This document shows positions 30,127 to 46,586 of a stretch of 64,000 nucleotides of DNA, piece after piece. Under the pieces are notes generated by a model. It did no database searches, had not been told where the DNA came from, and was given only the letters and a program-made list of their open reading frames with translations. The translations under genes were made by a program, and so were the position numbers. Within the stretch, counting starts at the first letter, position 1. The number at the start of each line of letters is the position of its first letter. Source of the DNA: Nocardioides sp. Kera G14 (GTDB taxonomy: Bacteria > Actinomycetota > Actinomycetes > Propionibacteriales > Nocardioidaceae); the NCBI RefSeq assembly GCF_020715565.1, contig NZ_CP085839.1:3162001-3226000 (forward strand). The letters run 5' to 3'.

Positions 30127-30738
30127 TCAGCTGCCGAGGAGACGGACCCAGCTCGCCGTGAGCTCGGCGAGCATGGTCTCGCGGTCCACCTTCCAGGCGC
30201 CGTCCTCGTAGTTCTGCGCGATGAAGTCGAGCTCCGCCATCGCGAGCACGCCCTTGAAGTGCCGTACGCCGACGTCGAAGCGGTTCGCCTCGGTGAGGCC
30301 GTCCTCGACGTCGCTGATGGCCTCCTCCATCCAGCGCTCGACCAGGTTGCCCAGGTCGCGGTCGACCGCGGCGGCCTCCCGTCCGATGCGGATGAGCGGC
30401 CGGATGTCCGGCCAGCGCTCGGACGTGCGCCGCATCCAGGCCCCGATCGCCTCCGGGGTGCCCTCGGCCACGACCTCGACGAGCTCCCGCGCCGTCGAGC
30501 CATGCCGCGGTGAGCGGCTGCGCTGGAGGGTCTCGTTGAGCTGCTCGTCGATCAGCGCCTTCATCAGGTCGGCGCGCGAGGGGAAGTACGCGTAGAAGGT
30601 GACCCGGGTCGTGCCGGCCGCCTTCGCGATGTCGTCGACCGTGGTGGCCGCATAGCCCTGCTCGGTGAAGAGACGGAGCCCCGAGTCCAGGAGCAGGCGT
30701 CGCGTCATCTGCTTCTGCTGCTCGCGGAGGGAGGCCAT
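30127..30738 (-). CDS. TetR family transcriptional regulator
   Basis: A 203-residue regulator. The HTH is LFTEQGYAATTVDDIAKAAGTTRVTFYAYFPSRADL and an all-helical ligand-binding domain follows. It is divergent from the P450 operon, and the intergenic region carries an inverted repeat (30775-30795) as likely operator. It is convergent with the LacI gene, with only 3 bp between their stops. Confidence 0.88.
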   Translation of the reverse strand: MASLREQQKQMTRRLLLDSGLRLFTEQGYAATTVDDIAKAAGTTRVTFYAYFPSRADLMKALIDEQLNETLQRSRSPRHGSTARELVEVVAEGTPEAIGAWMRRTSERWPDIRPLIRIGREAAAVDRDLGNLVERWMEEAISDVEDGLTEANRFDVGVRHFKGVLAMAELDFIAQNYEDGAWKVDRETMLAELTASWVRLLGS

Positions 30739-30774
30739 GCAAGAACCCTACCTCTTTGCTCAGATCATTGACAG

Positions 30775-30795
30775 TGTGTCAAGACACGTGACACA
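30775..30795. promoter_or_regulatory. TetR-type inverted repeat at P450 promoter
   Basis: TGTGTCA and TGACACA form 7-bp arms separated by 7 bases. The site lies 37 bp from the TetR start and 64 bp before the P450 start, fitting shared control of both genes. Confidence 0.55.
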
Positions 30796-30809
30796 GTGCA
30801 CAGCGTTCG

Positions 30810-30825
30810 CGTGACAGCAGTCACA
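30810..30825. promoter_or_regulatory. CRP/GlxR-like box
   Basis: CGTGA-N6-TCACA (CGTGACAGCAGTCACA), one base from the consensus TGTGA-N6-TCACA, lies 34 bp before the P450 start. Confidence 0.5.
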
Positions 30826-30858
30826 CGCGATGTGCCCCCGGCCACTCAAGGAGCAACG

Positions 30859-32070
30859 ATGACCTCGACCACGTCGACCGGCGCCGCAGCGCCGACCTCC
30901 GATCTCGACCTCTTCGCCGACGCCGTCCTGACGGACCCCTATCCGACGTACGCCGCACTCCGCGCCCTCGGCCCGGTCGTCCACCTGACCACGAACGACG
31001 TCTACGCGCTCACCTCCTACGACGCCGTGCGTGACGCACTCGCTGACTGGGAGACCTTCTCCTCGGCCCACGGCGTCGGCTTCAACCCGGGCGTCAACGA
31101 GGCACTGGCCGGGACCTCCCTGGCGAGCGACCCGCCACAGCACACCGCGCTGCGCGCCGCACTCACCGAGAACCTCTCGCCCCGCGCACTGCGCGGCCTC
31201 AAGGGCCAGATCGACGCGAAGGCGGACGCGCTCGTCGCCTCGCTCGTCGAGCAGGGCAGCTTCGACGCGATCGACGCCATCGCCCGCCAGTTCCCGCTCG
31301 AGGTCGTGGCCGACCTGATCGGCTTCACCGGCGAGGTCCGCGACCACATGCTCACCTGGGGGAAGGCCGCCAACCAGGTGATCGGCCCGATGAACCCGCG
31401 CACGATCGAGTCCTTCCCCATCGCCGGCGAGCTCTACGCCTGGTGTGCGGGCGTGAAGCAGGAGGACCTCGCTCCCGACTCCATCGGCTACGGCATCTTC
31501 GAGGCCGAGAAGCGTGGCGACATCCCCGCCGACGCGTCGGGCCCGATCATCCACCAGTACCTCGCCGCGGGCGTCGAGAACACCGTCAGCGCCCTCGGCA
31601 ACATCCTGTCGCTGCTCACCGCGCACCCCGACCAGCTGGCCCAGATCCGCGAGGACCCGTCGCTCATCCCCGCAGCGTTCAACGAGGTGCTCCGCTTCTG
31701 GGCGCCGATCAACGCGTGGGGCCGCGAGACGACCCGCGAGGTCACCATCGCCCGCGGTGACGACACCGGGATCACCATCCCCGCCGGCGCCCGCGTCGCC
31801 CTCCTGCTCGGCTCGGGCAACCGCGACGAGCGGCACTACGAGAACGCCGACACGTTCGACATCACCCGCAACCCGACCGACCACCTCTCCCTCGGGTACG
31901 GCGTCCACGGCTGTGCCGGCCAGGGACTCGCCCGCCTCGAGGCGCACGCGCTGATCGACGCGCTCGCCCGTCGGGTCGAGCGCTTCGTCGTCGGCGACGA
32001 GCTCCGCGTCCCGCACAACATCACCCGGAGCATCGACTCGCTCCCCGTCCTGGAGGTCGTCCCCGCATGA
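30859..32070 (+). CDS. Cytochrome P450, CYP199A-like (possible aryl O-demethylase)
   Basis: A 403-residue class I P450. The heme Cys is C352 in LGYGVHGCAGQGLARLEA, ExxR is in NEVLRF, and the I-helix reads AGVENT (237-242), where Asn241 stands at the usual acid-alcohol Thr. The segments TFSSAHGVGF, LLLGSGNRDERHYENADTFDITR and TRSIDSLPV resemble CYP199A 4-methoxybenzoate demethylases (from memory). It would oxidise a benzoate-like substrate, releasing formaldehyde if it demethylates. Its ferredoxin and reductase follow directly. AAGGAG precedes the ATG at 30859. Confidence 0.85.
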   Translation: MTSTTSTGAAAPTSDLDLFADAVLTDPYPTYAALRALGPVVHLTTNDVYALTSYDAVRDALADWETFSSAHGVGFNPGVNEALAGTSLASDPPQHTALRAALTENLSPRALRGLKGQIDAKADALVASLVEQGSFDAIDAIARQFPLEVVADLIGFTGEVRDHMLTWGKAANQVIGPMNPRTIESFPIAGELYAWCAGVKQEDLAPDSIGYGIFEAEKRGDIPADASGPIIHQYLAAGVENTVSALGNILSLLTAHPDQLAQIREDPSLIPAAFNEVLRFWAPINAWGRETTREVTIARGDDTGITIPAGARVALLLGSGNRDERHYENADTFDITRNPTDHLSLGYGVHGCAGQGLARLEAHALIDALARRVERFVVGDELRVPHNITRSIDSLPVLEVVPA

Positions 32071-32273
32071 GCACTCTTCTCACGATCGAGCTCGACGTCC
32101 CGCGCTGTGAGGGCCACGGCCTCTGCGAGGAGGCCGCACCCGACCTGATGCACCTCGACGACGAGGGCGACCTCGTCCTCGACGTGGCGCAGGTCGAGGA
32201 GGACACTCCTGAGGCCCGCGCCGCTGCTGCGGCCGTGCGCGTCTGCCCGGTCGCGGCGCTGAAGCTGGCCTGA
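32067..32273 (+). CDS. 3Fe-4S ferredoxin, P450 partner
   Basis: A 68-residue ferredoxin with C14, C20 and C60 (CEGHGLC...CPVAAL). His17 takes the place of the second cluster Cys, which indicates a 3Fe-4S cluster as in actinobacterial P450 redox partners. The ATG overlaps the P450 stop (ATGA), and the reductase gene starts 2 bp downstream. It shuttles electrons from the reductase at 32276 to the P450. Confidence 0.9.
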   Translation: MSTLLTIELDVPRCEGHGLCEEAAPDLMHLDDEGDLVLDVAQVEEDTPEARAAAAAVRVCPVAALKLA

Positions 32274-32275
32274 GG

Positions 32276-33382
32276 ATGCGTCGGATCGTCGTCGTCGGCA
32301 ACGGCATCGCCGGGCTGACCGCCGCCGACACGCTGCGCGACGCCGGCTTCGACGGCGAGCTCACGATCGTCGGCGACGAGCCGGCCTACAGCCGTCCCGC
32401 GCTCTCCAAGGCGCTGCTGCGCAACGACCTCACCGCACACGAGCTCCCGCCGACGACGCACGGAGCGACTGAGCTCATCGGCGTGCGTGCGACGGCGCTC
32501 TCCGTCGAGTCGCGTGAGGTCACGCTCGACGACGGCGAGCTGCTGCCCTTCGACGGCCTGGTGATCGCGACCGGCTCGCGCGCCCGCCGCCTCTCCGACC
32601 TGCCGGGCGAGCTCACCCTGCGCGGCCTCTCCGACGCCCTCGCCCTCCGGGACCGGGTGGCGGAGAGGCCGAGCGTGCTCGTCATCGGCGGCGGCCCGCT
32701 CGGCATGGAGGTCGCCTCCGGCTGCCTCGAGGCCGGATGCGCCGTCACCCTGGTGTCACAGGGGATGCCGCTCGTCGCGCAGTTGGGTCCTCACCTTGCC
32801 GACGTCTTCGTCGCGGCCGCCCGCGCCCATGGGCTGACCATCGTCGAGAGCGCCGGCGCGCGTCTCGAGGAACGTGACGGCGTGACCGTTGCGGTGCTCG
32901 CGGAGGGCAGTGTCATCGGCGCGGAGCTGGTCGTCAGCGCCGTCGGCGACGTGCCCAACACTGAATGGCTCGCGTCGTCGGGCCTGTGCGCCGGTGGCCC
33001 GATCACGGTCGACACGCGTGGCCTCGTCGGCCCCGGCGTCGCAGCGGTGGGTGACCTGGCCGCGTTCCCGTCGGCGTACGGGATGCGGCGGGTGCCCCTG
33101 TGGAGCAGCGCGATCGAGCAGGCCAAGGTCGCCGCGCGCGCCCTGGTCCTCGGCGAGGAGGCGCCCGAGCTGGCCTTCCAGTCCTACTTCTGGACCGAGG
33201 GATTCGGCCTCAACCTCAAGGCCGTCGGCGACATCCCTGCCTCCGAGCCGACGTACGTCGACGGCGACCCCGCCGATCCGGCGGCGGGCGTCCTGCTGCA
33301 GTGGCCCGGTGCCGCGGCGGCGCTCAACGTCCGAATCCCCATCCCCAAACTGCGGCGGCTCACCGAGCCGGCGTTCACCTGA
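32276..33382 (+). CDS. NAD(P)H:ferredoxin reductase (FAD-dependent pyridine nucleotide-disulfide type)
   Basis: A 368-residue flavoprotein. It carries the FAD motif GNGIAGLTAADTL, the NAD motif VIGGGPLGMEVASG, ATGSRAR, and the second FAD contact GVAAVGDLAAFPS. YFWTEGFGLNLKAVGDI is typical of the ferredoxin-reductase C-terminal domain, which here is shorter than in common 400-residue homologues. It completes the three-component class I P450 system with 30859 and 32067. Confidence 0.88.
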   Translation: MRRIVVVGNGIAGLTAADTLRDAGFDGELTIVGDEPAYSRPALSKALLRNDLTAHELPPTTHGATELIGVRATALSVESREVTLDDGELLPFDGLVIATGSRARRLSDLPGELTLRGLSDALALRDRVAERPSVLVIGGGPLGMEVASGCLEAGCAVTLVSQGMPLVAQLGPHLADVFVAAARAHGLTIVESAGARLEERDGVTVAVLAEGSVIGAELVVSAVGDVPNTEWLASSGLCAGGPITVDTRGLVGPGVAAVGDLAAFPSAYGMRRVPLWSSAIEQAKVAARALVLGEEAPELAFQSYFWTEGFGLNLKAVGDIPASEPTYVDGDPADPAAGVLLQWPGAAAALNVRIPIPKLRRLTEPAFT

Positions 33383-33415
33383 GGCACCATGCCCGAAATG
33401 CAAGGAGAAACACCC

Positions 33416-35122
33416 ATGAGCGGAGCACAGGCCCCGAGCCGCTTCGTACCGACCCTGATCGCCGGCTGTCTCGGCGTCTTCGTCGCGCAGGTGGCGTACT
33501 CGCTGCCCGCATCCATCCTCGGCACCATCCAGCAGGACCTCGGCATCTCGGGCGCCGATCTCACCTGGGTCAGCGCCGCCTTCGCCGCCGCGATGGTCAT
33601 CTTCGAGCTGACCTTCGGCGTCGTCGGTGACATCTTCGGCCGCAAGCAGCTCCTGCTCGGCGGCCTCGCGCTCCTCGCCGCCGGTGAGCTCATCACCATC
33701 CTCGGCGCCTCGCACGTGCACACGCTGTGGATCGGCCAGGCCGTCGCCGGCATCGGCGCGGGTGCGCTCTACCCGATCTCGCTCACGATGATCGCCGCCG
33801 CCGCGCCGGACGCGAAGGCCCGTGCCAACGCGATCGCCCTGTGGGCCGGGTTCCTCTCCGTCGGTGCGGCCGTCTCGCCGATCACCGCCGGCGCGCTCGC
33901 CGAGAACGGCCACTGGAAGTCCAGCTTCTGGATCCCGCTCGCTCTCGCGGCCGTCGCCTTCGTGATCTCCTTCGCCGCGTCGAACTCCTCGGCCCCGGAG
34001 GGTCGCAAGCTGGACCTGCCCGGCCAGGCCACGCTGATCATCGGTCTCGTCTCCCTCATCTGGGCGCTCACCCAGGGCTCGGAGATCGGCTACGGCGAGG
34101 GCCGGATCATCGTCGGCCTCCTCTTCGCCGCGGTGTTCCTCGTGGCCTTCGTGATCGTCGAGCTCCGCTCGGCCTCGCCGCTGATCCATCTGTCGCTCTT
34201 CACGAACCGCGCCTTCGCGATCACCGGCATCACCGCGGTCGTGGGCATGTTCGCCTACCTCGCGACCTGCTTCTCGATGACGATGTTCCTCGGTTCCGTT
34301 GCCCACATCGGCGCGGTCTGGATCGGCATCCTCTTCCTGGTCATCCAGGTCCCGGCGTTGCTCCTCGTGCCGCTCGTCGCCAAGCTGATCCACTCGGTCA
34401 GCCCGCAGTGGGTCCTCACGGCCGGCTTCGCCTTCATCGGCGTCGCGGCCTTCTGGTCCTCGACCTTCGATGCGCATGACTTCGTGACGTCGCAGGGCGC
34501 CCCGGACAACTCGCAGTGGGTCCGGTTCATCGGCCCGATGATCCTCAACGGCATCGGCTTCGCGCTGACCGTCGGCTCGATCACCGCCGTCGCGATCAAC
34601 TCCGTGCCGCTGCGCCTCGCCGGCATGGCGTCCGCCACCACCAACCTGCTGCGTGACTTCGGCTTCGCGCTCGGTCCGGTGCTCGGCGGCGCACTCTACA
34701 ACTCGATCGCCAAGGGCAGGTTCAACGACGGCCTCGACGCCGCGTTCGGCGAGTCGGCCAAGCAGGGCTTCACCGTCCTCCACCAACCGCTCGACCCGCA
34801 CGTCCCGACCGACGCCGTCATGGGCGCCCTGCACGGCATCAGCGGAGCCGGCCCGCTGGCCGTCAACTCGGTGCAGACGCTGACGGACCCCGCGAGCGGT
34901 AAGCCGTTCGTGGACATGCCGTTCGCGCTGCACGACCTGGCGTTCACGTCGCTGAGCAACGCGTTCAACACGACGTTCCTCGTGGCCGCGCTCTGCGCGC
35001 TCGTGTCGGCCGTCCTCACTGCCGTCGGCCTGATCGGCGCCAAGTCCGGCTCCGACTCCGACCGTGAGTTCGCCGCCGAGATGGGCACCGACGTGATCCA
35101 CGAGGTCACCGGCGCGCACTGA
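33416..35122 (+). CDS. MFS transporter, DHA2-like (about 14 TM segments)
   Basis: A 568-residue major facilitator protein with many hydrophobic segments. Motif A-like GVVGDIFGRKQLLLGG lies in the first loop. The start at 33416 has AAGGAG upstream and is preferred to an in-frame ATG at 33389. A long hydrophilic insertion around residues 440-500 (FNDGLDAAFGESAKQGFTVLHQPLD...) precedes the last TM segment, as in several DHA2 exporters. As the last gene of the P450 operon it may import the substrate or export a product. A strong hairpin terminator follows. Confidence 0.87.
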   Translation: MSGAQAPSRFVPTLIAGCLGVFVAQVAYSLPASILGTIQQDLGISGADLTWVSAAFAAAMVIFELTFGVVGDIFGRKQLLLGGLALLAAGELITILGASHVHTLWIGQAVAGIGAGALYPISLTMIAAAAPDAKARANAIALWAGFLSVGAAVSPITAGALAENGHWKSSFWIPLALAAVAFVISFAASNSSAPEGRKLDLPGQATLIIGLVSLIWALTQGSEIGYGEGRIIVGLLFAAVFLVAFVIVELRSASPLIHLSLFTNRAFAITGITAVVGMFAYLATCFSMTMFLGSVAHIGAVWIGILFLVIQVPALLLVPLVAKLIHSVSPQWVLTAGFAFIGVAAFWSSTFDAHDFVTSQGAPDNSQWVRFIGPMILNGIGFALTVGSITAVAINSVPLRLAGMASATTNLLRDFGFALGPVLGGALYNSIAKGRFNDGLDAAFGESAKQGFTVLHQPLDPHVPTDAVMGALHGISGAGPLAVNSVQTLTDPASGKPFVDMPFALHDLAFTSLSNAFNTTFLVAALCALVSAVLTAVGLIGAKSGSDSDREFAAEMGTDVIHEVTGAH

Positions 35123-35228: not shown

Positions 35229-36959
35229 TCAGTCGTTGACGACGAACGGCAGGACGAGACGCGTCGGGTGCTCGGCGTCGCGGTAGATCTTGTGCGTGAC
35301 CGGGTGGCCGACCGGGAGGTGGAAGGCGTCCGGGGGCAGCATCGAGTTGTGGTCGTCGACCAGCGGCTCGTTGCAGGAGAGCTCCACGACGACCTGGTGG
35401 CCCGGCAGGATCGTGGCGGCGAACGGGTAGACCCGCAGCACGTACTCCTCGATCGCGCCCGGCTCGACCGGCACCTTGCGGGTGAGCGGGTGGATCGGGC
35501 TGCCGACGGTGGACTCCTCGGCATCCAGCTCGCGCATCGAGGCCTTGAGGTACGCCGTCGTCAGCAGCTGACGCTTGCCACCCGGCGCCACGTCCCACAT
35601 CCGCATGATCCAGTTGGTGTCCGTCGCGTCGATGGAGGCGAACAGGTGGAACGCCCCGGTGCCCATCAGCTCGATCGGCTCGAGCAGCGGATCGGTGGAC
35701 CACGAGAGGATCTCCACCTTGCCGGTCACGGTGAGCGGCGCCTGGTAGAAGCCGTCGGGGGCGGCGTACTCGGAGCCCATGATCTCGGGCTCGTAGGAGA
35801 GCTTGCGTCGGGGCCGGAGGAAGAGGTCGCGGTACTCGACCGGTTTCGTCGGGAACGCGTCGCCGACGGAGAACTTCTTCGAGCCCTCGATGAAGACCGA
35901 CACAGCCGGCTCGGTGTCGACGCCGTTGTCGATGCCCTTGATCCACTTGTCGTACCAGCGGAACATCTTGTCCTGCTCCTCGATGAACGGACGTGACGTC
36001 ATCGGGGGGTAGGGGTCGATCGACAGCTTCTTGTGGGCCGAGGGGATCCGGTTGAAGAGCTCGATGGTGCCGTCCATCGTCCAACCACGGCCCTGGTTGA
36101 TCTGCACCCAGACCGGGATGTCGATGTTCTCGGCGAGGTTGACCGGGTTGCGCTCCTCGTACCACTCGCCATCGACGTCGTTCATCACGATGTCGAACCA
36201 GGCCTCGTGGTTCTTCGGGTAGTGCAGCGTGTGGACGAGGTTCGGCCACGCCTGGACGTCGGGGTCCTGGAGCCGCTCGGCGACCTTGGCCTCGATCTCC
36301 TCCACGCTGTAGGTCTCGAGCATCCGCGACGTGATCCGGTCGGTGAAGGCCCACCCGGAGTCGCCGCCGCGACCCTCGCGGGCCGCGCGGGGCATCAGCC
36401 ACATCACGCCGCCGTGATAGGTCGTCTCGTAGAAGTCGAAGTGACCGCCGGGGACGAAGATCGCCTTGAGGCTCGGCGGACGCTCAGCGGCCGCAAGCAC
36501 CTGCATCGATCCGAAGTAGGAGGTGCCGATCATGCCGACGTTGCCGTCGCACCACGGCTGCGCCGCCACCCACTCGATCAGGTCGTAGGCGTCCTGGCCG
36601 AGCGGCACCCCGCCGGCGTTGTAGTTGCCGACGTGGTCACCTTCGGAGTAGCCCGAGCCGCGCAGGTCGCCGATCACGTGCACGTAGCCCTCGGAGACGA
36701 CACGCGCGGTGTCGCCTGCCTCGATGCAGCCGTCCCACATCGGCGACGGCCGCTTCTGCGGAGGCATCGTGAGGGCGAGGGCCTGGAGCTCCTTGCCGTA
36801 CGGCGACAGGGCGATGAGCGCCGGCCGCGGCTCGTCGAACGAGTCGGTGTAGGCGTCGGCCGCAAGGTTGATGCCGTCACGCATCGGGACGACGAGGTCC
36901 TTGAGTGCGGCGATCTTCTGCGTCCCGGCGACGATGGTCTTACTGGTGGTCTCGCGCAT
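35229..36959 (-). CDS. CocE/NonD family hydrolase (X-Pro dipeptidyl-peptidase S15 type)
   Basis: A 576-residue alpha/beta hydrolase. VPMRDGINLAADAYTDSFDEPRPALIALSPYG opens the catalytic domain, S147 in GTSYFGS is the nucleophile, and the C-terminal jelly-roll starts near FDLPVG-like sequence and ends PTRLVLPFVVND. Family members hydrolyse esters or acyl amides (cocaine esterase, alpha-amino acid ester hydrolase). It is the last gene of the minus-strand operon and starts 1 bp after the MBL gene stop. The substrate is unknown. Confidence 0.86.
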   Translation of the reverse strand: MRETTSKTIVAGTQKIAALKDLVVPMRDGINLAADAYTDSFDEPRPALIALSPYGKELQALALTMPPQKRPSPMWDGCIEAGDTARVVSEGYVHVIGDLRGSGYSEGDHVGNYNAGGVPLGQDAYDLIEWVAAQPWCDGNVGMIGTSYFGSMQVLAAAERPPSLKAIFVPGGHFDFYETTYHGGVMWLMPRAAREGRGGDSGWAFTDRITSRMLETYSVEEIEAKVAERLQDPDVQAWPNLVHTLHYPKNHEAWFDIVMNDVDGEWYEERNPVNLAENIDIPVWVQINQGRGWTMDGTIELFNRIPSAHKKLSIDPYPPMTSRPFIEEQDKMFRWYDKWIKGIDNGVDTEPAVSVFIEGSKKFSVGDAFPTKPVEYRDLFLRPRRKLSYEPEIMGSEYAAPDGFYQAPLTVTGKVEILSWSTDPLLEPIELMGTGAFHLFASIDATDTNWIMRMWDVAPGGKRQLLTTAYLKASMRELDAEESTVGSPIHPLTRKVPVEPGAIEEYVLRVYPFAATILPGHQVVVELSCNEPLVDDHNSMLPPDAFHLPVGHPVTHKIYRDAEHPTRLVLPFVVND

Positions 36960-36960
36960 G

Positions 36961-37887
36961 TCAGTGCTCCTGCGTGTAGCCGTGGAGGGTGGTGAAGAAG
37001 GGCGACGGCTCGAGAGTCGGGTCACCTGTGTAACCGAGCTCGGACGCCAGCTTCTCGAAGGGTGAGTAGACGGAATCGCTTGCCCCGCTGGGGATCCGAC
37101 CCACAGCGTCGCGGATCTCGGCCTCACGGGCGAGACTCGCCCGGAGCGCCTCGCGGGCACCGTCGGCGTCGAGCGCGACGTCGAACGGCGTCTGGTCGGC
37201 GCGACGGTAGGGATGGCCGAGGTAGAGGTGCTGCGGCTCCAGCGCGACGACGCACTCGAGCGAGGCCCGGTAGGCGTCGGGGTCCTCGTAGCCCGGGAAG
37301 CCGCTGGCCGCGCCGTAGCACTGGGCGGCATCGCCGACGAAGACGTGCTCAGCTGCTCCGTCCCCAGACTCGACGACATAGGCGACGGCGCCTGGCGTGT
37401 GACCCGGGATCGCGACGACCCGCACGGAGACACCACCCAAGTCGAGGACGTCACCGTCCTTGACCGTGAGGGAGGGTTCCATCTCGCCCGAGATGGCATC
37501 CAGCACCTCGCACACCTTCTTGGCGCGGAGCGCGTCGGTGTCGACGTACTCACCGCGGAGCGACAGTGCCTCCTCGACGTGCGCCTGGCGCGAGCTGAGG
37601 AAGTGGGCGTCGACCTCGGAGATGACGACCTTGGCCTGGCGGCCCGTCGCCTCCCAGAGGGCGAAGGCCCCACCGACGTGGTCGATGTGGCCGTGCGTGA
37701 GGAGGATCCACGTCACGTCCTCGATGCGCCTGCCCAGCTTCTCGAGCTCGGCCGGCACGTTGGCCGCGGACGCCGTCACGCCGGTGTCGACCAGGGCCAG
37801 GCCTCCCCCTGTCTCTGTGCAGTCGATCAGGTAGGAGAAGAGCGCGAAGCGGCCCCACGGCGCCGCAATCGGAAGGACGTCCGTCAT
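36961..37887 (-). CDS. MBL-fold metallo-hydrolase
   Basis: A 308-residue metallo-beta-lactamase superfamily protein. The zinc motif is HGHIDH (H65, H67, D69, H70), with later ligands in IPGHTPGAVAYV and FVGDAAQC. It could be a lactonase, thioesterase or aryl-ester hydrolase, and nothing narrows this by sequence alone. It overlaps the upstream esterase gene by 4 bp and so belongs to the same transcript. Confidence 0.85.
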   Translation of the reverse strand: MTDVLPIAAPWGRFALFSYLIDCTETGGGLALVDTGVTASAANVPAELEKLGRRIEDVTWILLTHGHIDHVGGAFALWEATGRQAKVVISEVDAHFLSSRQAHVEEALSLRGEYVDTDALRAKKVCEVLDAISGEMEPSLTVKDGDVLDLGGVSVRVVAIPGHTPGAVAYVVESGDGAAEHVFVGDAAQCYGAASGFPGYEDPDAYRASLECVVALEPQHLYLGHPYRRADQTPFDVALDADGAREALRASLAREAEIRDAVGRIPSGASDSVYSPFEKLASELGYTGDPTLEPSPFFTTLHGYTQEH

Positions 37888-38798
37888 GAGAGGAACTCGG
37901 CGGTCTCGGCGAACGCGCGGTAGTACTCCGGGATCCAGAAGAAGTGCTGGACGAAGCCGTGACCGGCGCCCTCGTAGCGCGACACCTTCGCCTCGACGCC
38001 GGCCTCGCGGAGGCGCTCGCCGTAGAGCTCGGCCTCGTCGCGGAGCGGGTCGAACTCGCCGGTGATGATCAGCGCCGGCGGGAGACCGGTGAGGTCCTCC
38101 CGCTTGATCGGCGAGACCTTGGGGTCGGCGGGGTTGGCTCCGGAGTTGAGGTAGAAGGCGTTGAACGGCTTCAGGCCGGCGGTCTCGAGGCCGTATCCGA
38201 CGGCGTTCTCGCGCAGCGACGGGTAACGGTCGATGTCGAAGTCCAGGTCGAGCGACGGGTAGAAGAGCACCTGCTGCGTGATGACGTCGAAACCGTCGTC
38301 CTTGGCCATGCCCGCGACGGCGGCGACGAAGGTGCCACCCGACGAATCCCCAGCCAGGGCAAGGGTCTCACCGTCCCAGCCGAGGATCGCACCCTGGTCG
38401 GCGACCCAGCGGACGACGCCGTAGCAGTCCTCCAGGCCGGCCGGGAAGGCATTCTCCGGAGCGAGGCGGTAGCCCACCGAGACGACCTTGAGGCCCGTCT
38501 CCTTGGCGAGCGCACGGGCGATGTGGTCGTGCGTCTCGAGGCTGCCGAGGAAGAAGGCGCCGCCGTGGAGATAGACGAGCACGCCGTACGTCGACCGCTC
38601 CTCGGCCGCGTAGATCCGCACCGGCACCTCACCGGCGGGGGTCTTCGCGACAAGGTCCTCGACGGAGTGGAGCGGCAGGCGCTCGGCCAGCGGGGTCACG
38701 TGTGACTCGTCGAAGGCCCGCATGGCGACCGGGTCGAGCTCGGCCGGAGGAGCCGGCAGGCTCGCGAGGACCTTCGCGATCTCGGGGTGGAGCGGCAT
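37884..38798 (-). CDS. Alpha/beta hydrolase fold-3 esterase (HSL family)
   Basis: A 304-residue hormone-sensitive-lipase-type carboxylesterase. The oxyanion motif HGG is at 78-80, the nucleophile S152 in GDSSGG, the acid D250 in GEFDPLRDE and the base H280 in GAGHGF. It is cytoplasmic with no signal peptide. It hydrolyses short-chain or aryl esters. It is one of four hydrolase-type enzymes in this operon, downstream of a flavin monooxygenase that could generate an ester or phenol. Confidence 0.88.
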   Translation of the reverse strand: MPLHPEIAKVLASLPAPPAELDPVAMRAFDESHVTPLAERLPLHSVEDLVAKTPAGEVPVRIYAAEERSTYGVLVYLHGGAFFLGSLETHDHIARALAKETGLKVVSVGYRLAPENAFPAGLEDCYGVVRWVADQGAILGWDGETLALAGDSSGGTFVAAVAGMAKDDGFDVITQQVLFYPSLDLDFDIDRYPSLRENAVGYGLETAGLKPFNAFYLNSGANPADPKVSPIKREDLTGLPPALIITGEFDPLRDEAELYGERLREAGVEAKVSRYEGAGHGFVQHFFWIPEYYRAFAETAEFLS

Positions 38799-38803
38799 GG
38801 CGA

Positions 38804-39946
38804 TCAGGCCCCGGCCGCGGAGGTGGTGGCGCCGATCTCGCCCGGCTTCTGGCCGGGGAAGACGTCGTTGACCTCGTCCTCGGACCAGCCGTTGCGCGAG
38901 AGCCGCTGGAGCTCGTCGGTGACCGGCTTCCGGGCGGCCTGGAAGGCGGCGAGGGCCTCGGGGAGCGTGTCCGCCTCACGGAGCGCCTTGGTGAGCGCAC
39001 CGGCGTCCATGATCGCCGAGTTGGCGCCCTGGCCCTGGTGGTGGCACATGGCGTGGGCGGCGTCACCGATGAGGGTGACGGCGTCGGAGTGCCATACGTC
39101 GACGGGGTCGATGTCGTAGACGGCGCGGATGTTGACGGTGTTCATGTCGAGGTTGCGGGTCGCCGCCACGATGCGCTCGTCGAAGCCCTCGACGGTCCTG
39201 AGGATGTCCTCCTTGGTGACGGTGGGCGCCCAGGTGGAGTCCGGGTTGAGCGCCGTGATGTCGAAGGAGAGCTGGCCGCGCGAGAGCAGCGGGAGCAGGT
39301 AGACCTTGGTGCCACGGCCGATGTACATCCGCAGCTTGCCGTCGTCGACCATGCCGGGGGTCTCGGCGATGTCGATGACCGCCCGGTAGGCGTGCTCGCC
39401 GGCGAAGACCGGCTGCTGGTCGCTGAAGAGCTGCTCGCGGACGGTCGACTTGATGCCGTCGGCACCGATCACGAGGTCGGCCGTGACCGTCTCGCCGTTG
39501 GCGAAGGTCAGGGTCACCCCACCTGACGCGTCGCCGTTGGCCGTGTGGTCAATGATCTTCTCCAGCTTGTGGCCGACCTTGACCATGCCCTCCGGCAGGA
39601 CGCCGACGAGCGCGTCGATGAAGTCGCCGCGGTGGATCAGGTGGGTGGTGGTCTCGTAGACGTCCTTCTCCGGCCACTCCTCCTCCATGATCGGGTGGCC
39701 CTCGCCGGTCAGGATCTGGAACGCCTCGCTCGGGTTGGAGACGGCCGCGATGGCGTCGAAGATGCCGAGGTCGCGGAAGAGACCCATCGTGGACGGGCGC
39801 AGGCCGATGCCGGCGCCGACCTCACGGATGGCGGAGGCCTGCTCGTAGACGGTGACATGGGCGCCCGCGAGGCTGAGGGCCTTGGCCGCAGCGGCGCCGC
39901 CGTAGCCGGCACCGATGATGGCGACGTTGAGGTTCGAGATGTCCAT
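38804..39946 (-). CDS. FAD-dependent monooxygenase (salicylate hydroxylase-like)
   Basis: A 380-residue group A hydroxylase. It contains GAGYGGAAAAKALSLAG near residues 12-28, the DG motif IGADGIKS, and the GD motif TLIGDAAHAMCHHQGQGANSAIMDAG. It hydroxylates an aromatic acid or related ring using NAD(P)H. It is sandwiched between the phosphotriesterase-family enzyme (10 bp gap) and the HSL esterase (5 bp gap). This is the sixth such flavoprotein in the window. Confidence 0.87.
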   Translation of the reverse strand: MDISNLNVAIIGAGYGGAAAAKALSLAGAHVTVYEQASAIREVGAGIGLRPSTMGLFRDLGIFDAIAAVSNPSEAFQILTGEGHPIMEEEWPEKDVYETTTHLIHRGDFIDALVGVLPEGMVKVGHKLEKIIDHTANGDASGGVTLTFANGETVTADLVIGADGIKSTVREQLFSDQQPVFAGEHAYRAVIDIAETPGMVDDGKLRMYIGRGTKVYLLPLLSRGQLSFDITALNPDSTWAPTVTKEDILRTVEGFDERIVAATRNLDMNTVNIRAVYDIDPVDVWHSDAVTLIGDAAHAMCHHQGQGANSAIMDAGALTKALREADTLPEALAAFQAARKPVTDELQRLSRNGWSEDEVNDVFPGQKPGEIGATTSAAGA

Positions 39947-39956
39947 CAGGATTCCT

Positions 39957-40949
39957 TCAGTTCTTTCCGGGCGTGAGGGTCAGGAACTCGGTCGGGTTCG
40001 TGACGAAGATGGTGTGGATGTCGTCCTCGCTGACCCCGGCGTTGCGCAGGTCGGGGATGAGCGTGTCGAAGATGTAGTTGACGGTGTGGCCCTTGACGCC
40101 CGGCCAGCCCAGCGGGCTGCAGTTGGCGTCGGCGCCCGCAAGGACCTGCTTGATGTGGCCGTCGGCGAGGAAGCCGAGCAGGTGGTCGAGGCGGTCCTGG
40201 CGGTGACGGCCCCAGAAGGGCGGGTCGGGCAGCTCGAGGTCGTAGCCGAAGGTGTCGAAGCCGATCCGGCCGCCCTTCTCCGTGAGCAGGTCCTGCTTGA
40301 CCTTGCCCTGGCTGACGCCGTCGTCGGCGTGGCCGAAGAGGACGCGGTCGAGCGGGAGGCCCTCCTCCGCGAAGACCTCGAGCGCCGGGTCCGTGTCGAC
40401 CGCGAGGTGGGTGAAGATCGGCACGCCGGTCTCGACAGCCGCACGCGCGGCGGCGCGGTAGATGCGGAGGTCGAGCTCCTTCATCCTGAAGCCGCGGCTC
40501 ACCCCGACCTTGATGATGCCGGCCTTGGCGGTGGTGTCGCCGCCGATGCCGACGGTGATCTCGTGCAGGAACTGGCGGTAGAGGTAGTCCACCGAGGCAC
40601 GCTCGAAGAACGGCAGCGCCGTGTCGCCGCCGACGAAGCCGGTGCAGGCGATGATGTGCAGGCCGGTCTTCGCGCTCAGCGACTTGTAGTAGTCGAGGTC
40701 GCGGCCGTTGCAGATTCCCGTCGCGTCGACGTAGCCGCCCGCACCGCCGCCGTAGTCGCGGATGTGCTCGTGGAAGGCGCGCAGCTTCGGGACGGTCTCC
40801 TCGTAGCGGACCTCCGGGGTCTTCCACCAGGTCGTGTCGAGCTCGGAGCCGGGCATGCCGTAGCCGATGTGCTCGTGGATGGCGGTGAAGCCGAGCTCCT
40901 CCGGCGCGATCGGGCCGAGGACGGTGTTGATCCGCTCGATGGTCGTCAT
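39957..40949 (-). CDS. Phosphotriesterase (PTE) family metal hydrolase, intact active site
   Basis: A 330-residue TIM-barrel amidohydrolase of the PTE/lactonase-like family. The opening TVLGPIAPEELGFTAIHEH is diagnostic. All six expected metal ligands are visible: H25 and H27, K147 (carboxylated Lys), H181, H207 and D274. Family members hydrolyse lactones, phosphotriesters or amides, and no phosphorus context is present. It lies 3 bp downstream of a paralogue that has lost every ligand, which suggests the two products act together. Confidence 0.87.
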   Translation of the reverse strand: MTTIERINTVLGPIAPEELGFTAIHEHIGYGMPGSELDTTWWKTPEVRYEETVPKLRAFHEHIRDYGGGAGGYVDATGICNGRDLDYYKSLSAKTGLHIIACTGFVGGDTALPFFERASVDYLYRQFLHEITVGIGGDTTAKAGIIKVGVSRGFRMKELDLRIYRAAARAAVETGVPIFTHLAVDTDPALEVFAEEGLPLDRVLFGHADDGVSQGKVKQDLLTEKGGRIGFDTFGYDLELPDPPFWGRHRQDRLDHLLGFLADGHIKQVLAGADANCSPLGWPGVKGHTVNYIFDTLIPDLRNAGVSEDDIHTIFVTNPTEFLTLTPGKN

Positions 40950-40952
40950 GGG

Positions 40953-41870
40953 TCAGGCTCCCTTCACGGCGCTGACGGAGAGCAGCGCGGCGGGGTTGGT
41001 CACGAGGATCTGCTCGCGCAGCTCCTCCGGCAGGGACGTGATCAGGACGTCGTACGTCGTCTCCGGCATCTCACCCTCGTCGTAGCCGAAGGCGAGTGCG
41101 GCGCCGCCGGTCGCGACGAGCGTGCGCTCCGCGTTGCCGGCCCCGGCGAACGAGACGGCCGCGGCGAGCTGGTCGAGACCGGCGAAGACCACGTAGGCGC
41201 CCTGCTCGGCGATCGCGGCGGCGGCATCACCGGCGTCGGACACCGCGACGCGCGCGGCGTCGAGGCCCTCGGAGAGCGCGACCGCGAGCTCGGCGACCGG
41301 GTCGGTGCCGGCACGGAAGGTGAGCGGGACGCCGGTGCGGAGAGCGGCGCGGGCGGAGCCCCGGAGCTGGCTCTCGTCGGTCGGCGTCATGCCGGCCGCG
41401 GTGACGGCCGTGGAGACCAGGCCGGCGGAGCCGCGGCGCTCGACGCGCGGCACGACCATGCCCTCGGTCACCTCGTTGCCGTAGAGGACGTCGAACTTCT
41501 CGGCCGGCCACGGGGTGGGCGGGTTGGTCTGCGGGGTGAGGAAGTAGCCGCCCAGCATGCCCTCCTCCATCTGGCCCGCGGAGGCGACGATGTGGACGCC
41601 CGTGGCGCGGGAGAGCGCCTCGAGCAGCGGGACGTCGCGGCCGGCGAACATGCCGCCGGCGTCGACGACGGTGCCGCCACCGGCCGCCTTGAAGGCGGTC
41701 AGCTTGTCGGCGATGGCCCGGAAGATCACGGACCGGTCGAGCTCGATGTCGTAGGCGTACTGCGCTCCCGGAAGCACCGAGAGAAGTCGCTCGCCGACGG
41801 CGACGAGGCCGAGTTCGGCAGCGGGGACAGGACCGAGAACGGTGTTCGCGGTGTTGCTGGTGGCGGTCAT
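40953..41870 (-). CDS. Phosphotriesterase-like pseudoenzyme (all metal ligands lost)
   Basis: A 305-residue protein clearly paralogous to its downstream neighbour: TVLGPVPAAELGLVAVGERL aligns with TVLGPIAPEELGFTAIHEHI. By hand alignment the ligand positions read G26, R28, S153, R186, D212 and G255 or G256, so no binuclear metal centre can form. The frame is open and codon use is normal, so it is not a decaying pseudogene. It is the first gene after the GntR-UTRA operator and may be a structural or regulatory partner of the active enzyme. Confidence 0.78.
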   Translation of the reverse strand: MTATSNTANTVLGPVPAAELGLVAVGERLLSVLPGAQYAYDIELDRSVIFRAIADKLTAFKAAGGGTVVDAGGMFAGRDVPLLEALSRATGVHIVASAGQMEEGMLGGYFLTPQTNPPTPWPAEKFDVLYGNEVTEGMVVPRVERRGSAGLVSTAVTAAGMTPTDESQLRGSARAALRTGVPLTFRAGTDPVAELAVALSEGLDAARVAVSDAGDAAAAIAEQGAYVVFAGLDQLAAAVSFAGAGNAERTLVATGGAALAFGYDEGEMPETTYDVLITSLPEELREQILVTNPAALLSVSAVKGA

Positions 41871-41976: not shown

Positions 41977-42714
41977 TCAGTTGTTGGTACTGAACCGGTA
42001 CTTGAACTGGTCGGGCAGGTGGGTGTTCGCGCGCCAGCCGACGAGGCGGCCCGCGCGGGTGTGGAAGCGCGACTCGACCTCCAGCACGGGCGACCCCTCC
42101 GGAAGGGCCAAGAGCTCTGCCGCCTCCGATGAGGCGGCAGTGGCCCAGGCCTCGTGCTCGACTCGGGCGACCACGACGCCGAACTGCTGCTCGAGCAGCA
42201 CGAAGGCCGATCCGCTCTCCTCCAGCTCCGCGACCGAGGGGCGGAAACCGGCAGGGGCGTCGAGCCAGATCTGACCGACGGCCAGCGGCTCGCCGTCGAC
42301 GGCGATCAGCCGTCGGAAGTGCAGCAGCTTCGCGTCGTCGCGGAGCCCGATCCGCTCCATCTGCTCGGCCGTCGGCTCGACGAGGTCGAGGTCCCAGACC
42401 CGTGAGACCGGCTCGAGGCCCTCGCTGCGGAGGAAGCCGAGCAGTCCACCCAGGCGAAGGCTGTCGGGACGACGTACGGGCCGCCCTGCGCCGTGGACCG
42501 GGAACGTCCCCTTGGCACGCTCCCGGTACACGTAGCCCTCGTCGGAGAGCTCCTTGAGCGCCTGACGGATGGGGGCACGACTGACGCCGAAACGGCGGAT
42601 CAGGTCCTCCTCCGTCATCGGTCGGTCGACGGGCGTCACCTCGGTGACGATCTCATCGCGCAGGATCGTCTTGATCTGGCGATAGAGAGGGACACCCGAC
42701 GAGCGATCGATCAT
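41977..42714 (-). CDS. GntR family regulator, HutC/UTRA subfamily
   Basis: A 245-residue regulator. The winged helix PLYRQIKTILRDEIVTEVTPVDRPMTEEDLIRRFGVSRAPIRQALKELSDEGYVYRE is followed by a UTRA domain (LLHFRRLIAVDGEPLAVGQIWLD ... VEHEAWATAASSEAAELLALPEGSPVLEVESRF). It lies between the ABC importer genes and the hydrolase genes on the same strand. It probably responds to the transported substrate or a product and acts at the inverted repeat 41943-41965. Confidence 0.9.
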   Translation of the reverse strand: MIDRSSGVPLYRQIKTILRDEIVTEVTPVDRPMTEEDLIRRFGVSRAPIRQALKELSDEGYVYRERAKGTFPVHGAGRPVRRPDSLRLGGLLGFLRSEGLEPVSRVWDLDLVEPTAEQMERIGLRDDAKLLHFRRLIAVDGEPLAVGQIWLDAPAGFRPSVAELEESGSAFVLLEQQFGVVVARVEHEAWATAASSEAAELLALPEGSPVLEVESRFHTRAGRLVGWRANTHLPDQFKYRFSTNN

Positions 42715-42718
42715 GGCG

Positions 42719-43834
42719 TCAGTTCTTCCACTCCTGCGCCTGCTTCACAACTGCGGCCTCGTCGAAGTCGTTCGCGGCGGCGAGCAGCGAGTTGTCGTAG
42801 AGCTTCGACGGGTCGGCGATCTTCCCCGTGAGACCGAGGTAGGCGATGTCGGCGTCCCAGCGCTCGGGAGCGAGGTACCCCCACTGCCCGTTGGTGCCCT
42901 TCTTGAACTGGCTGACCGTGGCGAGCAGGGCAGCCTTGCCCTGCGCCAGGGCGGCGTCCTCGGAGACGTTCTTCGGCTTGCTGGCCGGGTACTTCTCCCA
43001 GTTCATCCTGACGGCTGCCTCGGGGTTGGTCTGCGCGAAGACCGCGGCCTCCATGTAGGCCTTGAGGTACTTGCCGTACGCGTCCATCTGCGCCTTGCTC
43101 GCGTCGTCACGGACCAGGAAGCCGGCGGCGAAGGTCTGGGCGACCGAGGTCGGAAGCGGGAGCGTGCGCACCTTGACGCCGGCGGCCGGGGCCGAGACGG
43201 CGATCTCGGAGTTGTTGGCCACGATGGCGTCGACCGCACCGTTCTGGAGCTGCGCCATGGCGGCGGCGACCGGCATGGCGACCGGCTTGATCGAGTCGCC
43301 GTCCGCGCCGTCGGCCTTCACGTTGGCGCGGGCGAAGGTCTCGAACGGCGCGCCGAGCGCGCTCATGCTGACCTTCTTGCCGGCAAGGTCCTTCGCCGAC
43401 TGGATGGGCGAGTCCTCGGCGACGACGATGCTGGTGCTCGGCGCCTGGTAGGGCGTGAAGACCCACTTCAGGCCGAGGTCCTGGCCCTTCGCGCTCGGGA
43501 CGATGATCGTGTCGGGGACCGAGTTCACCAGGTCCGCCTTGCCGGCCGAGACGAGGCCGACCGCCTGCGCCGGCTGCCCGGCGAGGGAGACGACCTTGAC
43601 GTTCAGGCCCTCGTCCTTGAAGTAGCCGAGCTTCTCGCCGAGCCAGTTCGGGATCGCGCCGGGCGTGCCGTCGGGGAACGGCGTCGCCAGCGTGATCGTG
43701 GTGAGCTTGCTGCCGTCCGCAGCGGTGCCCGAGTCCGAACCGCCGCACGCTGCGGTCAGCGCGACGGACAGTACGGCGACACCGGCTGCTGCGCCGCGGA
43801 TCAGTCGCTTCCGCATCGGTGAGGAAGTGGTCAT
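42719..43834 (-). CDS. ABC transporter substrate-binding lipoprotein (NMT1/SsuA/TauA-like)
   Basis: A 371-residue lipoprotein. The signal peptide RKRLIRGAAAGVAVLSVALTAAC ends at the lipobox Cys, then GGSDSG. The NMT1-type binding domain contains LGEKLGYFKDEGLNVKVVSL, GKADLVNSVPDTII and GVKVRTLPLPTS. Family ligands include sulfonates, nitrate, aromatic acids and phthalates. The start at 43834 has GAAAGG at suitable spacing, unlike the ATG at 43849. It is the ligand receptor for the permease and ATPase upstream. Confidence 0.88.
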   Translation of the reverse strand: MTTSSPMRKRLIRGAAAGVAVLSVALTAACGGSDSGTAADGSKLTTITLATPFPDGTPGAIPNWLGEKLGYFKDEGLNVKVVSLAGQPAQAVGLVSAGKADLVNSVPDTIIVPSAKGQDLGLKWVFTPYQAPSTSIVVAEDSPIQSAKDLAGKKVSMSALGAPFETFARANVKADGADGDSIKPVAMPVAAAMAQLQNGAVDAIVANNSEIAVSAPAAGVKVRTLPLPTSVAQTFAAGFLVRDDASKAQMDAYGKYLKAYMEAAVFAQTNPEAAVRMNWEKYPASKPKNVSEDAALAQGKAALLATVSQFKKGTNGQWGYLAPERWDADIAYLGLTGKIADPSKLYDNSLLAAANDFDEAAVVKQAQEWKN

Positions 43835-43882
43835 GGTGGTGCCTTTCATGAGAGGTGGAGGAGAGAGAGGTTGGGGCGGCGG

Positions 43883-44749
43883 TCAGCGGCCGCCGCGGCG
43901 GCTCTCGGCGGACCAGAAGGTCAGCCGCTTGCGGATCGCGACGAGGACGAGGACGAGCAGCCAGCCGATGACCCCGAGCAGGACCATGACGGCGAAGATG
44001 CTGGCGGTGTCGAGCACCTGCTGCATCTGCACGGTGAGCACACCGAGGCCGGCGGTACCGGCGAGGAACTCGGCGACGATCGTTGCGGTGATCGCCTGCA
44101 CCAGTGAGATCTCGAGCCCCGTGAAGAGGAACGGCAGCGAGTTCGGCAGGACGAGCTTGGTGAAGCGCTGCCAGGTCGAGGCGCCCAGCGACCGCATCAC
44201 GTCGAGCCGCTCGGGCTCGACCGACTTGAAGCCCGCCATGCCGGCCACCAACACAGGGAAGAAGGTCACCAGCGAGACCAGCATGATCTTCGACTCCGAG
44301 CCGAAGCCGAACCAGATGATGAAGAGCGGTGCGAACGCGATCTTCGGCACCGACTGGAAGGCGACGATCACCGGGTTGACGATCCGCTCGACGATCCGCA
44401 CCTGCGACAGGAGCAGTGCGAGGAGCAGGCCGACGACGGCGCCGAGCCCGAAGCCGGCCAGGATCTCCACCATCGTGACCCGGGCGTGGTACCAGTAGCC
44501 GGCAGGGTCGCTCGGGCTGGTGCTGAGCCCGTCGACCAGCGCGTCCCACACCGCCTTCGGTGTCGGCAGGATGACGGGGCGCACGTCGAAGAGCTCGATG
44601 TAGCCCCACCACGCCACGATGATGAGGGCGACGAAGACGGGCACTCCGATGAGCTCGGGGAGGCGTTCCCGCCAGCTCGTCCGCCTCGTGGGCACGAGGG
44701 CGCTCGCCACGGCGCTGGGCGCCTCCGGCTGCTGGACGTCGAGGGCCAT
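43883..44749 (-). CDS. ABC transporter permease (SsuC/TauC-like, BPD_transp_1)
   Basis: A 288-residue membrane protein with about six TM segments. FQSVPKIAFAPLFIIWFGFGSESKI is the conserved coupling region, and LPFLFTGLEISLVQAITATIVAEFLAG matches the SsuC/TauC family. It starts 2 bp after the ATPase stop. It forms the channel of a nitrate/sulfonate/taurine-type importer, which in actinobacterial catabolic operons often takes up aromatic acids (inference). Confidence 0.9.
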   Translation of the reverse strand: MALDVQQPEAPSAVASALVPTRRTSWRERLPELIGVPVFVALIIVAWWGYIELFDVRPVILPTPKAVWDALVDGLSTSPSDPAGYWYHARVTMVEILAGFGLGAVVGLLLALLLSQVRIVERIVNPVIVAFQSVPKIAFAPLFIIWFGFGSESKIMLVSLVTFFPVLVAGMAGFKSVEPERLDVMRSLGASTWQRFTKLVLPNSLPFLFTGLEISLVQAITATIVAEFLAGTAGLGVLTVQMQQVLDTASIFAVMVLLGVIGWLLVLVLVAIRKRLTFWSAESRRGGR

Positions 44750-44751
44750 GA

Positions 44752-45570
44752 TCAGTCTCCCGTCTTGGCGCCGAGCAGGCGGCGCAGGTGGTCGGCGGCC
44801 TCGTTGAAGCCGGTGGTGGCCATCACGGAGAGGTCGCGGGGTCGAGGCAGGTCGACGTCGTGGATCTCCGCGATGCGGCCGGGCCGCGCGGCCATGACGA
44901 CGACGCGGTCGGCGAGGAAGAGGGCCTCGTTCACGCTGTGGGTCACGAAGACGACGGTCTTGCCCGTGGCCTCCCACACGCGGAGCAGTTCGAGGCCCAT
45001 GTTCTCCCGCGTCTGGGCGTCCAGAGCGCCGAAGGGCTCGTCCATCAGCAGGATCTTGGGGTCGTGGAGCAGGGCGCGGGCGATGCTCACGCGCTGCTGC
45101 ATGCCGCCCGAGAGCTCATAGGGGTAGAGGCCGGCCGCGTGACCGAGACCGACGATCTCGAGCAGCTCCAGGGCGCGCTGCCGGGCTGGCTTCCGGGGAA
45201 GCTTCAGCACCTCGGCCGGCAGCACGACATTGTCGAGCACCGTGCGCCACGGGAAGAGCGCCGGCTGCTGGAAGACCATCCCGACGAGGGGGCTGGGGCC
45301 GTCGCTGACCCGGCCGTCGATCCGCACCTCGCCGCCCGTGGCCGTGGCCAGGCCTCCGAGGATCCGCATCAACGTGCTCTTCCCACACCCCGAGGGTCCG
45401 AGCACCGAGATGAACTCGCCGTCGGCGATCTGCAGGTCCACGTCCTGCAGGGCGCGGACCTCGCCGCCCGACTTCGAGCTGAACACCTGGCTGACCCCGC
45501 GGATGTCGATGAACGCCTCCGCCTCCGACGGACGCCGTCCGTTCCCTGTGTCGCTGACCGACAACTGCAT
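44752..45570 (-). CDS. ABC transporter ATP-binding protein (SsuB/TauB-like)
   Basis: A 272-residue ATPase with Walker A GPSGCGKST, signature LSGGMQQR and Walker B ILLMDEPFGALD. It is cytoplasmic and drives the importer with 43883 and 42719. It is the first gene of the long minus-strand run 45570 to 35229. Tandem CRP-like boxes lie 33-62 bp upstream of its start. Confidence 0.92.
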   Translation of the reverse strand: MQLSVSDTGNGRRPSEAEAFIDIRGVSQVFSSKSGGEVRALQDVDLQIADGEFISVLGPSGCGKSTLMRILGGLATATGGEVRIDGRVSDGPSPLVGMVFQQPALFPWRTVLDNVVLPAEVLKLPRKPARQRALELLEIVGLGHAAGLYPYELSGGMQQRVSIARALLHDPKILLMDEPFGALDAQTRENMGLELLRVWEATGKTVVFVTHSVNEALFLADRVVVMAARPGRIAEIHDVDLPRPRDLSVMATTGFNEAADHLRRLLGAKTGD

Positions 45571-45779: not shown

Positions 45780-46586
45780 ATGACTGCGCCCGACCCTTCC
45801 GCCGAAGCACCCGACTCAGTCCGCGTCGCCGCCTGGCAGGCGGTGCCCGGCCCTCTCGACGTCGAGGGCAACCTCGAACGCCTCGACGCCGTGGCGGCCG
45901 AGGCCGCTGCCCAGGGCGCGTCCGTACTGGTCACGCCGGAGATGTTCCTGACCGGCTACGCCATCGGGGCCGACGAGGTGCGGCGCCTCGCCCTCGAGCC
46001 TGCCGCGTTGCCGATCGCCGAGATCGCCCGTCGCCACGACATCGCGCTGCTCGTCGGTTGGCCCGAGGATCAGGACGAGGCGGTCTACAACTCCGCGGCC
46101 TTCCTCGACCGCCACGGATCGATGGTCGCGATCCATCGCAAGATCCACCTGTGGGGCGACCTCGACCGGGCCCAGTTCGTCCCCGGCACGGAGGCTCCGG
46201 CGACCTTCCCGGTCGAGGGCCGGAAGCTCGGCGCACTGATCTGTTACGACGTGGAGTTCCCCGAGGCCGTCCGGCATCTCGCGGTGCAGGGGGCTGTCGC
46301 CGTACTCGTGCCGACGGCGAACCCACAGGGCGCCGACGAGGTGCAGGACGTCCTGCTGCGCGCCCGCGCCGTGGAGAGCGGCGTGGGGATCGTCTACGCC
46401 AACTACGCCGGCTCCGACGGCCAACTCAGTTACAACGGCCGCAGCACCATCGTGGCGCCCGACGGGACCATCGTCGCCCAGGCCTCGGCCGAGGACGAGG
46501 AGCTGCTGGTCGCCGATCTCCCGCTCGGCTCGAAGCTCGGCGCGGACTACCTCCGGGATCGCCGGGCCGAGCTCTACCACCCGTGA
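45780..46586 (+). CDS. Carbon-nitrogen hydrolase (nitrilase superfamily)
   Basis: A 268-residue single-domain amidase with the complete catalytic triad: E54 in TPEMF, K121 in HRKIHL and C155 in ICYDVEFPE. The sequence pattern is closer to aliphatic amidase/carbamoylase or R-amidase types than to true nitrilases. GGGGGA precedes the ATG. The next gene (FUSC) overlaps it by 4 bp, so they are co-transcribed. The substrate is unknown. Confidence 0.87.
   Translation: MTAPDPSAEAPDSVRVAAWQAVPGPLDVEGNLERLDAVAAEAAAQGASVLVTPEMFLTGYAIGADEVRRLALEPAALPIAEIARRHDIALLVGWPEDQDEAVYNSAAFLDRHGSMVAIHRKIHLWGDLDRAQFVPGTEAPATFPVEGRKLGALICYDVEFPEAVRHLAVQGAVAVLVPTANPQGADEVQDVLLRARAVESGVGIVYANYAGSDGQLSYNGRSTIVAPDGTIVAQASAEDEELLVADLPLGSKLGADYLRDRRAELYHP

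Follow-up and report, generated by a model that had tools for sequence, protein, structure and literature searches.

A ligand-free phosphotriesterase paralogue conserved beside an active family member at the head of a hydrolase-rich operon

Why should a bacterium keep, directly upstream of an apparently intact phosphotriesterase-family gene, a related gene whose product lacks every metal ligand of the family? The question is raised by a 64,000 nt stretch of Nocardioides sp. Kera G14 (positions 3,162,001 to 3,226,000 of NZ_CP085839.1, called here the window), in which a ligand-free paralogue (P0001, 305 aa, coordinates 40953..41870, minus strand) and an active phosphotriesterase-family enzyme (P0002, 330 aa, 39957..40949, minus strand) are encoded by the first two of six core genes of an operon. 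A reading of this DNA made from the sequence alone had described them as a conserved active/inactive pair and proposed that they form an obligate heteromer or a substrate sensor. We find that the pair is kept together in nearly every genome that has it and that the ligand-free copy is under selection, and we lean, with modest confidence, to the view that the ligand-free protein serves the active enzyme as a non-catalytic partner subunit, completing or shaping its substrate pocket.

The two genes and their metal ligands

Both genes are whole, running from 41870 to 40953 and from 40949 to 39957, and their extents agree with the sequence-only reading, as does their description as paralogues: the products are 27% identical over 338 columns (E 1e-18) and both belong to PF02126, which is the sole Pfam match of either (E <= 0.001), with 140.3 bits for P0002 and 57 bits for P0001 against a gathering score of 22.4. 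A comparison by alignment column recovered the very residues read earlier, with six of the six metal ligands in P0002 (H25, H27, K147, H181, H207, and D274), whereas P0001 has G26, R28, S153, R186, D212, and G255 in the same columns, and thus none of the ligands of the binuclear site. P0001 is predicted, from its model, to retain the phosphotriesterase (PTE) barrel fold. The best solved relatives in single-sequence searches were 4h9v for the active copy (116.8 bits) and 5w7h for the inactive one (63.8 bits). Both proteins score below the cut-offs of all the NCBIfam models that they match; with the organophosphate hydrolase OPH model NF041153, whose equivalog cut-off is 500 bits, P0002 scores 94.9 bits and P0001 47.3 bits. 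When the genome, a single contig of 3.47 Mb, was searched with P0001, P0001 itself and P0002 were the only matches at E <= 0.001. The stop codon of the P0001 gene is separated by 3 bases from the start of the P0002 gene, and the sequence AAGGGAG lies just upstream of this start, inside the P0001 gene; because of this spacing and placement, the two genes are likely to be translationally coupled.

A protein search with P0001 gave 1935 matches at E <= 0.001 out of 7998 scored, and the best 120, P0001 included, were analyzed as the inactive clade. The first His is the only ligand kept in 103 of these sequences, 16 keep none and a single one keeps two, the first His and the Asp at the last position, while none of the 120 has the second His, the Lys or either of the later His residues. 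The loss of all six ligands therefore stands for the window's copy, but not as a trait of the clade, most members of which keep the first His. Judging from the residues present, the usual metal site cannot form in the clade as a whole. The active type, examined in 120 of 836 matches, showed the arrangement HHKHHD in 121 of 121 sequences, P0002 included. Among 22 other full-length paralogues from the genus of the window (a 180-residue fragment, L109, and lower-scoring matches were left out), 15 have HHKHHD and seven have HHGHHD. In a maximum likelihood tree of 98 rows the inactive sequences form one clade and the active sequences another (support 100/100), with the 22 other paralogues falling outside both; the inactive clade has a single origin. 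The two clades are sisters in the tree, a relationship that is less certain because long branches meet at that point (treekit warning).

Pairing and selection across genomes

The conservation of the pair was examined in loci carrying a relative of the inactive copy, for which the best 80 of 183 genome-contig stretches were kept, including two from Janthinobacterium and one from Paracoccus; all counts over 80 loci refer to this set. The active gene lies directly downstream of the inactive copy, on the same strand, in 79 of the 80 loci, and the inactive copy is one open frame, scoring 431-496 bits, also in 79. With start codons set by a simple rule, and with L057 and L025 omitted, the gap between the genes ranges from -4 to 60 bases in 78 loci, with a median of 48. 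Three of the 79 active genes are frameshifted (L022, L025, and L071), by assembly error or decay, and the other 76 have HHKHHD. The exception is L057 (8001-9254), a decayed operon where a deletion joins the inactive copy, at the operon start, to the apparent end of a CocE gene, and where the inactive copy has an early TAG. When the operon is tallied gene by gene the active gene counts as present in 80 of 80 loci, a figure that includes L057, where the match is a paralogue or a remnant.

Searches for both genes in four samples of genomes gave the same picture. Carriers of the active gene amounted to 4 of 98 genomes in the window's genus, 2 of 396 in its phylum, 14 of 343 in sample g4 and 7 of 150 in sample g6, which we take to be Streptomyces and Nocardia, respectively; the corresponding figures for the inactive copy were 4, 2, 15, and 7. 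The limits of these searches were 1e-50 or 1e-60, at which very divergent relatives would escape, except for one search of the window's genus at 0.001, whose weaker matches were other phosphotriesterases. The two matches in the phylum are the window's genome and G147, both present in other samples, and the inactive copy adjoins the active gene in all 25 distinct genomes that carry the latter (the active gene being frameshifted in G761). Only in one genome, G764, was the inactive copy alone, as a truncated match with an internal stop. Incidentally, G764 may be the same strain as L057. These counts are not independent of those over 80 loci, since the sets overlap (e.g., G761 with L022, and G048 with L004). 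Together, the adjacency in 79 of 80 loci and in every one of the 25 genomes that carry the active gene bears out the suggestion that the pair is conserved beyond the window.

The inactive copy is under purifying selection. Ratios of nonsynonymous to synonymous substitution rates (dN/dS) were calculated by the Nei-Gojobori method for 2194 of the 2346 pairs among 69 sequences, the window included, after dropping frameshifted loci and those that lack a clean gene for the flavin adenine dinucleotide (FAD)-dependent monooxygenase, and keeping pairs with dS < 1 for the three genes and > 0.1 for the inactive copy. The inactive copy had a median dN/dS of 0.32, compared with 0.25 in the active copy and 0.36 in the FAD monooxygenase; these values lean high, as dS is probably underestimated with G+C-rich third positions. 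Neutral evolution of the inactive copy, the outcome that the sequence-only reading had set against its own proposal, is not borne out. Likewise, the invariant residues of the inactive copy are encoded by several synonymous codons.

Conservation is concentrated in two near-invariant blocks, placed by DSSP on AlphaFold models and measured as mean column identity over 80 rows. One, ending in LGGYFLTPQTNPPTPWPAE, comprises residues 100-124 of P0001 (41499..41573, minus strand) and occupies the loop after strand 3, with 93% identity; the other, E..EGMVVPRVERRG.AG, comprises residues 133-150 (41421..41474, minus strand), between helix 3 and strand 4, with 95% identity, and includes the clade-specific residues M138-R146. 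Identity is 77% in residues 188-260 and 60% in residues 261-305. Furthermore, 41 residues are conserved at 93% or above in the inactive clade and not in the active clade or in the other paralogues, and 35 of them fall within positions 32-146. An alignment with 6fqe places residues 29-41 of the inactive copy in loop 1; the dimer interface of the Brevundimonas enzyme includes loops 1 and 3.

Candidate roles for the ligand-free protein

Phosphotriesterases are typically homodimers, and gene duplication readily turns a homodimer into a heterodimer; the simplest explanation of the ligand-free protein is therefore that it is a non-catalytic subunit. After an old duplication, the binuclear metal site would have been retained in one copy, while its sister, having lost the site, would have become a partner that completes the active copy's substrate pocket or holds it in shape. 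Contact would probably involve two conserved loops of the inactive copy, those that follow strands 1 and 3, and the conserved segment before strand 4, and the pair would perform a hydrolysis step in a probably catabolic pathway run by the operon. A stricter version, to which we give slightly less than even credence, is that of an obligate pseudoenzyme-enzyme heterodimer, in which the invariant loop (GGYFLTPQTNPPTPWPAE) would lie against the active subunit and form a composite pocket, EGMVVPRVERR would make a second, fixed contact, and the pair would have stayed together long enough to move as a unit, within one catabolic operon, between Actinobacteria and Proteobacteria.

How special the link between the two genes is was assessed from gene distances, using 74 of the 80 loci and the 15 possible pairs of core genes, and from models of the two proteins. 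By rank, the distance correlation of the pair was the highest of the 15 (0.879). Several results weigh against a privileged partnership: the Pearson correlation of the inactive copy was higher with the gene for the metallo-beta-lactamase-fold (MBL) hydrolase (0.860) than with its twin (0.826), and the partial correlations, with the other genes regressed out, were tied (0.600 and 0.584, respectively). The other four core genes are ordered alike in the same 79 loci, so that the pair does not stand out by its linkage alone. The pair was also folded with AlphaFold as a fusion, reading through the stop between the genes (TGA as W; the two are in one frame in the window). The first fusion model had a predicted template modelling score (pTM) of 0.61, about the value for two unplaced domains, although its alignment (A3) split the inactive rows across both halves (8 of 8 sampled), which makes the inactive half and the pTM unreliable. 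A second model, with the Georgenia ruanii locus L074 as the query and an alignment (A5) in which the placement of all 83 rows was checked, had a pTM of 0.55, again about the value for two unplaced domains, and a low predicted local distance difference test score (pLDDT) in the stretch with the invariant block. Coevolution thus speaks for a coupling of the pair, though not for one that is unique to it, and the fusion models speak neither for nor against a heterodimer. Of the sequence-only proposal, pairing and selection hold up, whereas the step from there to an obligate heteromer or a sensor stays a hypothesis: the linkage is common to the other core genes, neither model places the two halves with confidence, and the Pfam matches of P0001 give no hint of a DNA-binding or signalling domain.

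A serious rival, which we consider possible although less probable than a subunit role, is that the ligand-free protein has a separate task in the same pathway, as an enzyme that needs no metal or as a protein that binds or delivers a ligand, in either case without binding its twin and with new conserved residues in the old pocket. New invariant polar residues (Y109, T112, Q114, T115, and W121) in the pocket-face loop after strand 3 are in line with such a task, and the equal conservation of the other core genes is that expected of separate steps. Nevertheless, conservation is lowest in the C-terminal part, from which the remainder of the pocket should come; the block with R142, E144, R145, and R146 would, given the topology of the barrel, point away from the pocket; and no known catalytic motif was recognized in the ligand-free protein. 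That it is instead a substrate sensor or a regulator of operon expression we regard as improbable. Its gene stands first in the core and the protein still has a substrate-binding type of barrel, but PF02126 is its only Pfam domain and the loci have other regulators, with a TetR relative in 66 of 80 and a GntR relative in 5 of 80. Least credible of all is a decaying relic carried along by the operon, a reading favoured by a somewhat higher dN than that of the active copy (medians of 0.192 vs 0.158). Strict pairing, single origin, selection, and a preserved fold make a relic very unlikely, and the open frames in 79 loci, a dN/dS similar to that of the FAD monooxygenase and the invariant residues in several synonymous codons refute it as a general account of the clade.

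The operon and related systems

The six core genes occur in one order in 79 of the 80 loci, with the pair at the head. All are on the minus strand in the window, where the pair is followed by genes for the FAD-dependent monooxygenase (38804..39946; PF01494; 79 of 80 loci), an alpha/beta hydrolase of the hormone-sensitive-lipase type (37884..38798; PF07859; 79 of 80), the MBL hydrolase (36961..37887; PF00753; 79 of 80, inverted in two, the Kocuria loci L063 and L082), and a CocE/NonD family hydrolase (35229..36959; TIGR00976, 201.7 bits with a cut-off of 66.3; 80 of 80, with only the gene end in L057). Beyond the operon end, the window has four accessory genes (30127-35122). Three are on the plus strand and encode a major facilitator superfamily (MFS) transporter (33389..35122; PF07690; a relative in 38 of 80 loci), a ferredoxin reductase-type FAD/NAD oxidoreductase (32276..33382; PF07992; 52 of 80), and a cytochrome P450 of uncertain start codon (30796..32070; PF00067; 55 of 80); the fourth, on the minus strand, is the TetR regulator gene (30127..30738; PF00440). 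Directly upstream of the pair, on the minus strand, are the genes for a GntR-UTRA regulator (41977..42714; PF00392 and PF07702) and for an SsuA/NMT1-type ATP-binding cassette (ABC) importer (42719..45570), with a binding protein (42719-43849, PF09084), a permease of uncertain start (43883-44977, PF00528), and an ATPase (44752-45570, PF00005). Relatives of the importer's binding protein and permease were found in one and none of the 80 loci, respectively. A nitrilase-family (CN_hydrolase) gene (45780-46586), divergent from the importer, may belong to the same pathway.

The same six genes, together with genes for TetR, P450, ferredoxin, and reductase, are found on a plasmid of Caballeronia insecticola (NC_021295.1, L153:8425-18641), where the genes of the pair overlap by four bases; this record was the only match at E <= 1e-40 among 72,556 plasmid records of PLSDB. 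The plasmid cassette points to transfer across phyla, and the operon probably encodes a hydrolase-rich catabolic pathway that moves between them. Among the Paracoccus and Janthinobacterium loci, the one scanned (L066) has genes for a CobW/ZigA-like metallochaperone-type GTPase (L066:5829-6980) and a GntR regulator just upstream of the pair, and the same cluster is present in L020 and L038. Such a GTPase fits a supply of metal to the metalloenzymes of the operon. Searches of an open-access library for papers that link a phosphotriesterase with CocE, P450, a ferredoxin reductase or a gene cluster brought up no title of relevance.

In the study of enzyme evolution phosphotriesterases are a textbook case, generally regarded as homodimers encoded by one gene. 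If the ligand-free protein is a subunit, the pair would be a natural case, in a widespread lineage, of a homodimer turned into a heteromer of catalytic and non-catalytic chains, and this could explain failed attempts to find activity with a clone of the ligand-bearing gene by itself. The pair also points to an uncharacterized, horizontally moving operon. PTE, OpdA, GkaP, and SsoPox, members of PF02126, have the fold of both copies and the six ligands of the active one; unlike in those known systems, active and ligand-free copies are here fixed side by side. In agreement with the sequence-only reading, we found no description of a ligand-free partner for this family in full-text searches of an open-access library, although a pair of catalytic and auxiliary proteins is already known in the wider amidohydrolase superfamily, so that it is this instance that is new. 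The nearest precedent is AibH1H2, the 2-aminoisobutyrate hydroxylase of Rhodococcus, an oxygenase with a Mn/Fe site formed as a heterodimer of related PF04909 subunits, one catalytic and one auxiliary (PMC12141560). Both cases involve two related superfamily proteins, one of them of catalytic type, with the present pair known from genes and models; the proteins described here belong to PF02126 instead of PF04909, and the partner has no metal ligands and was never missing beside the active gene in the samples searched. For the function proposed, a parallel is the trypanosome AdoMetDC-prozyme complex, in which a dead paralogue activates its active partner by heterodimerization, as seen in a crystal structure (PMC5201418). 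AdoMetDC is eukaryotic and of an unrelated family, and the complex that is proven there is proposed here, but the role of the prozyme is of the same kind as that suggested for the ligand-free partner of this phosphotriesterase-family enzyme.
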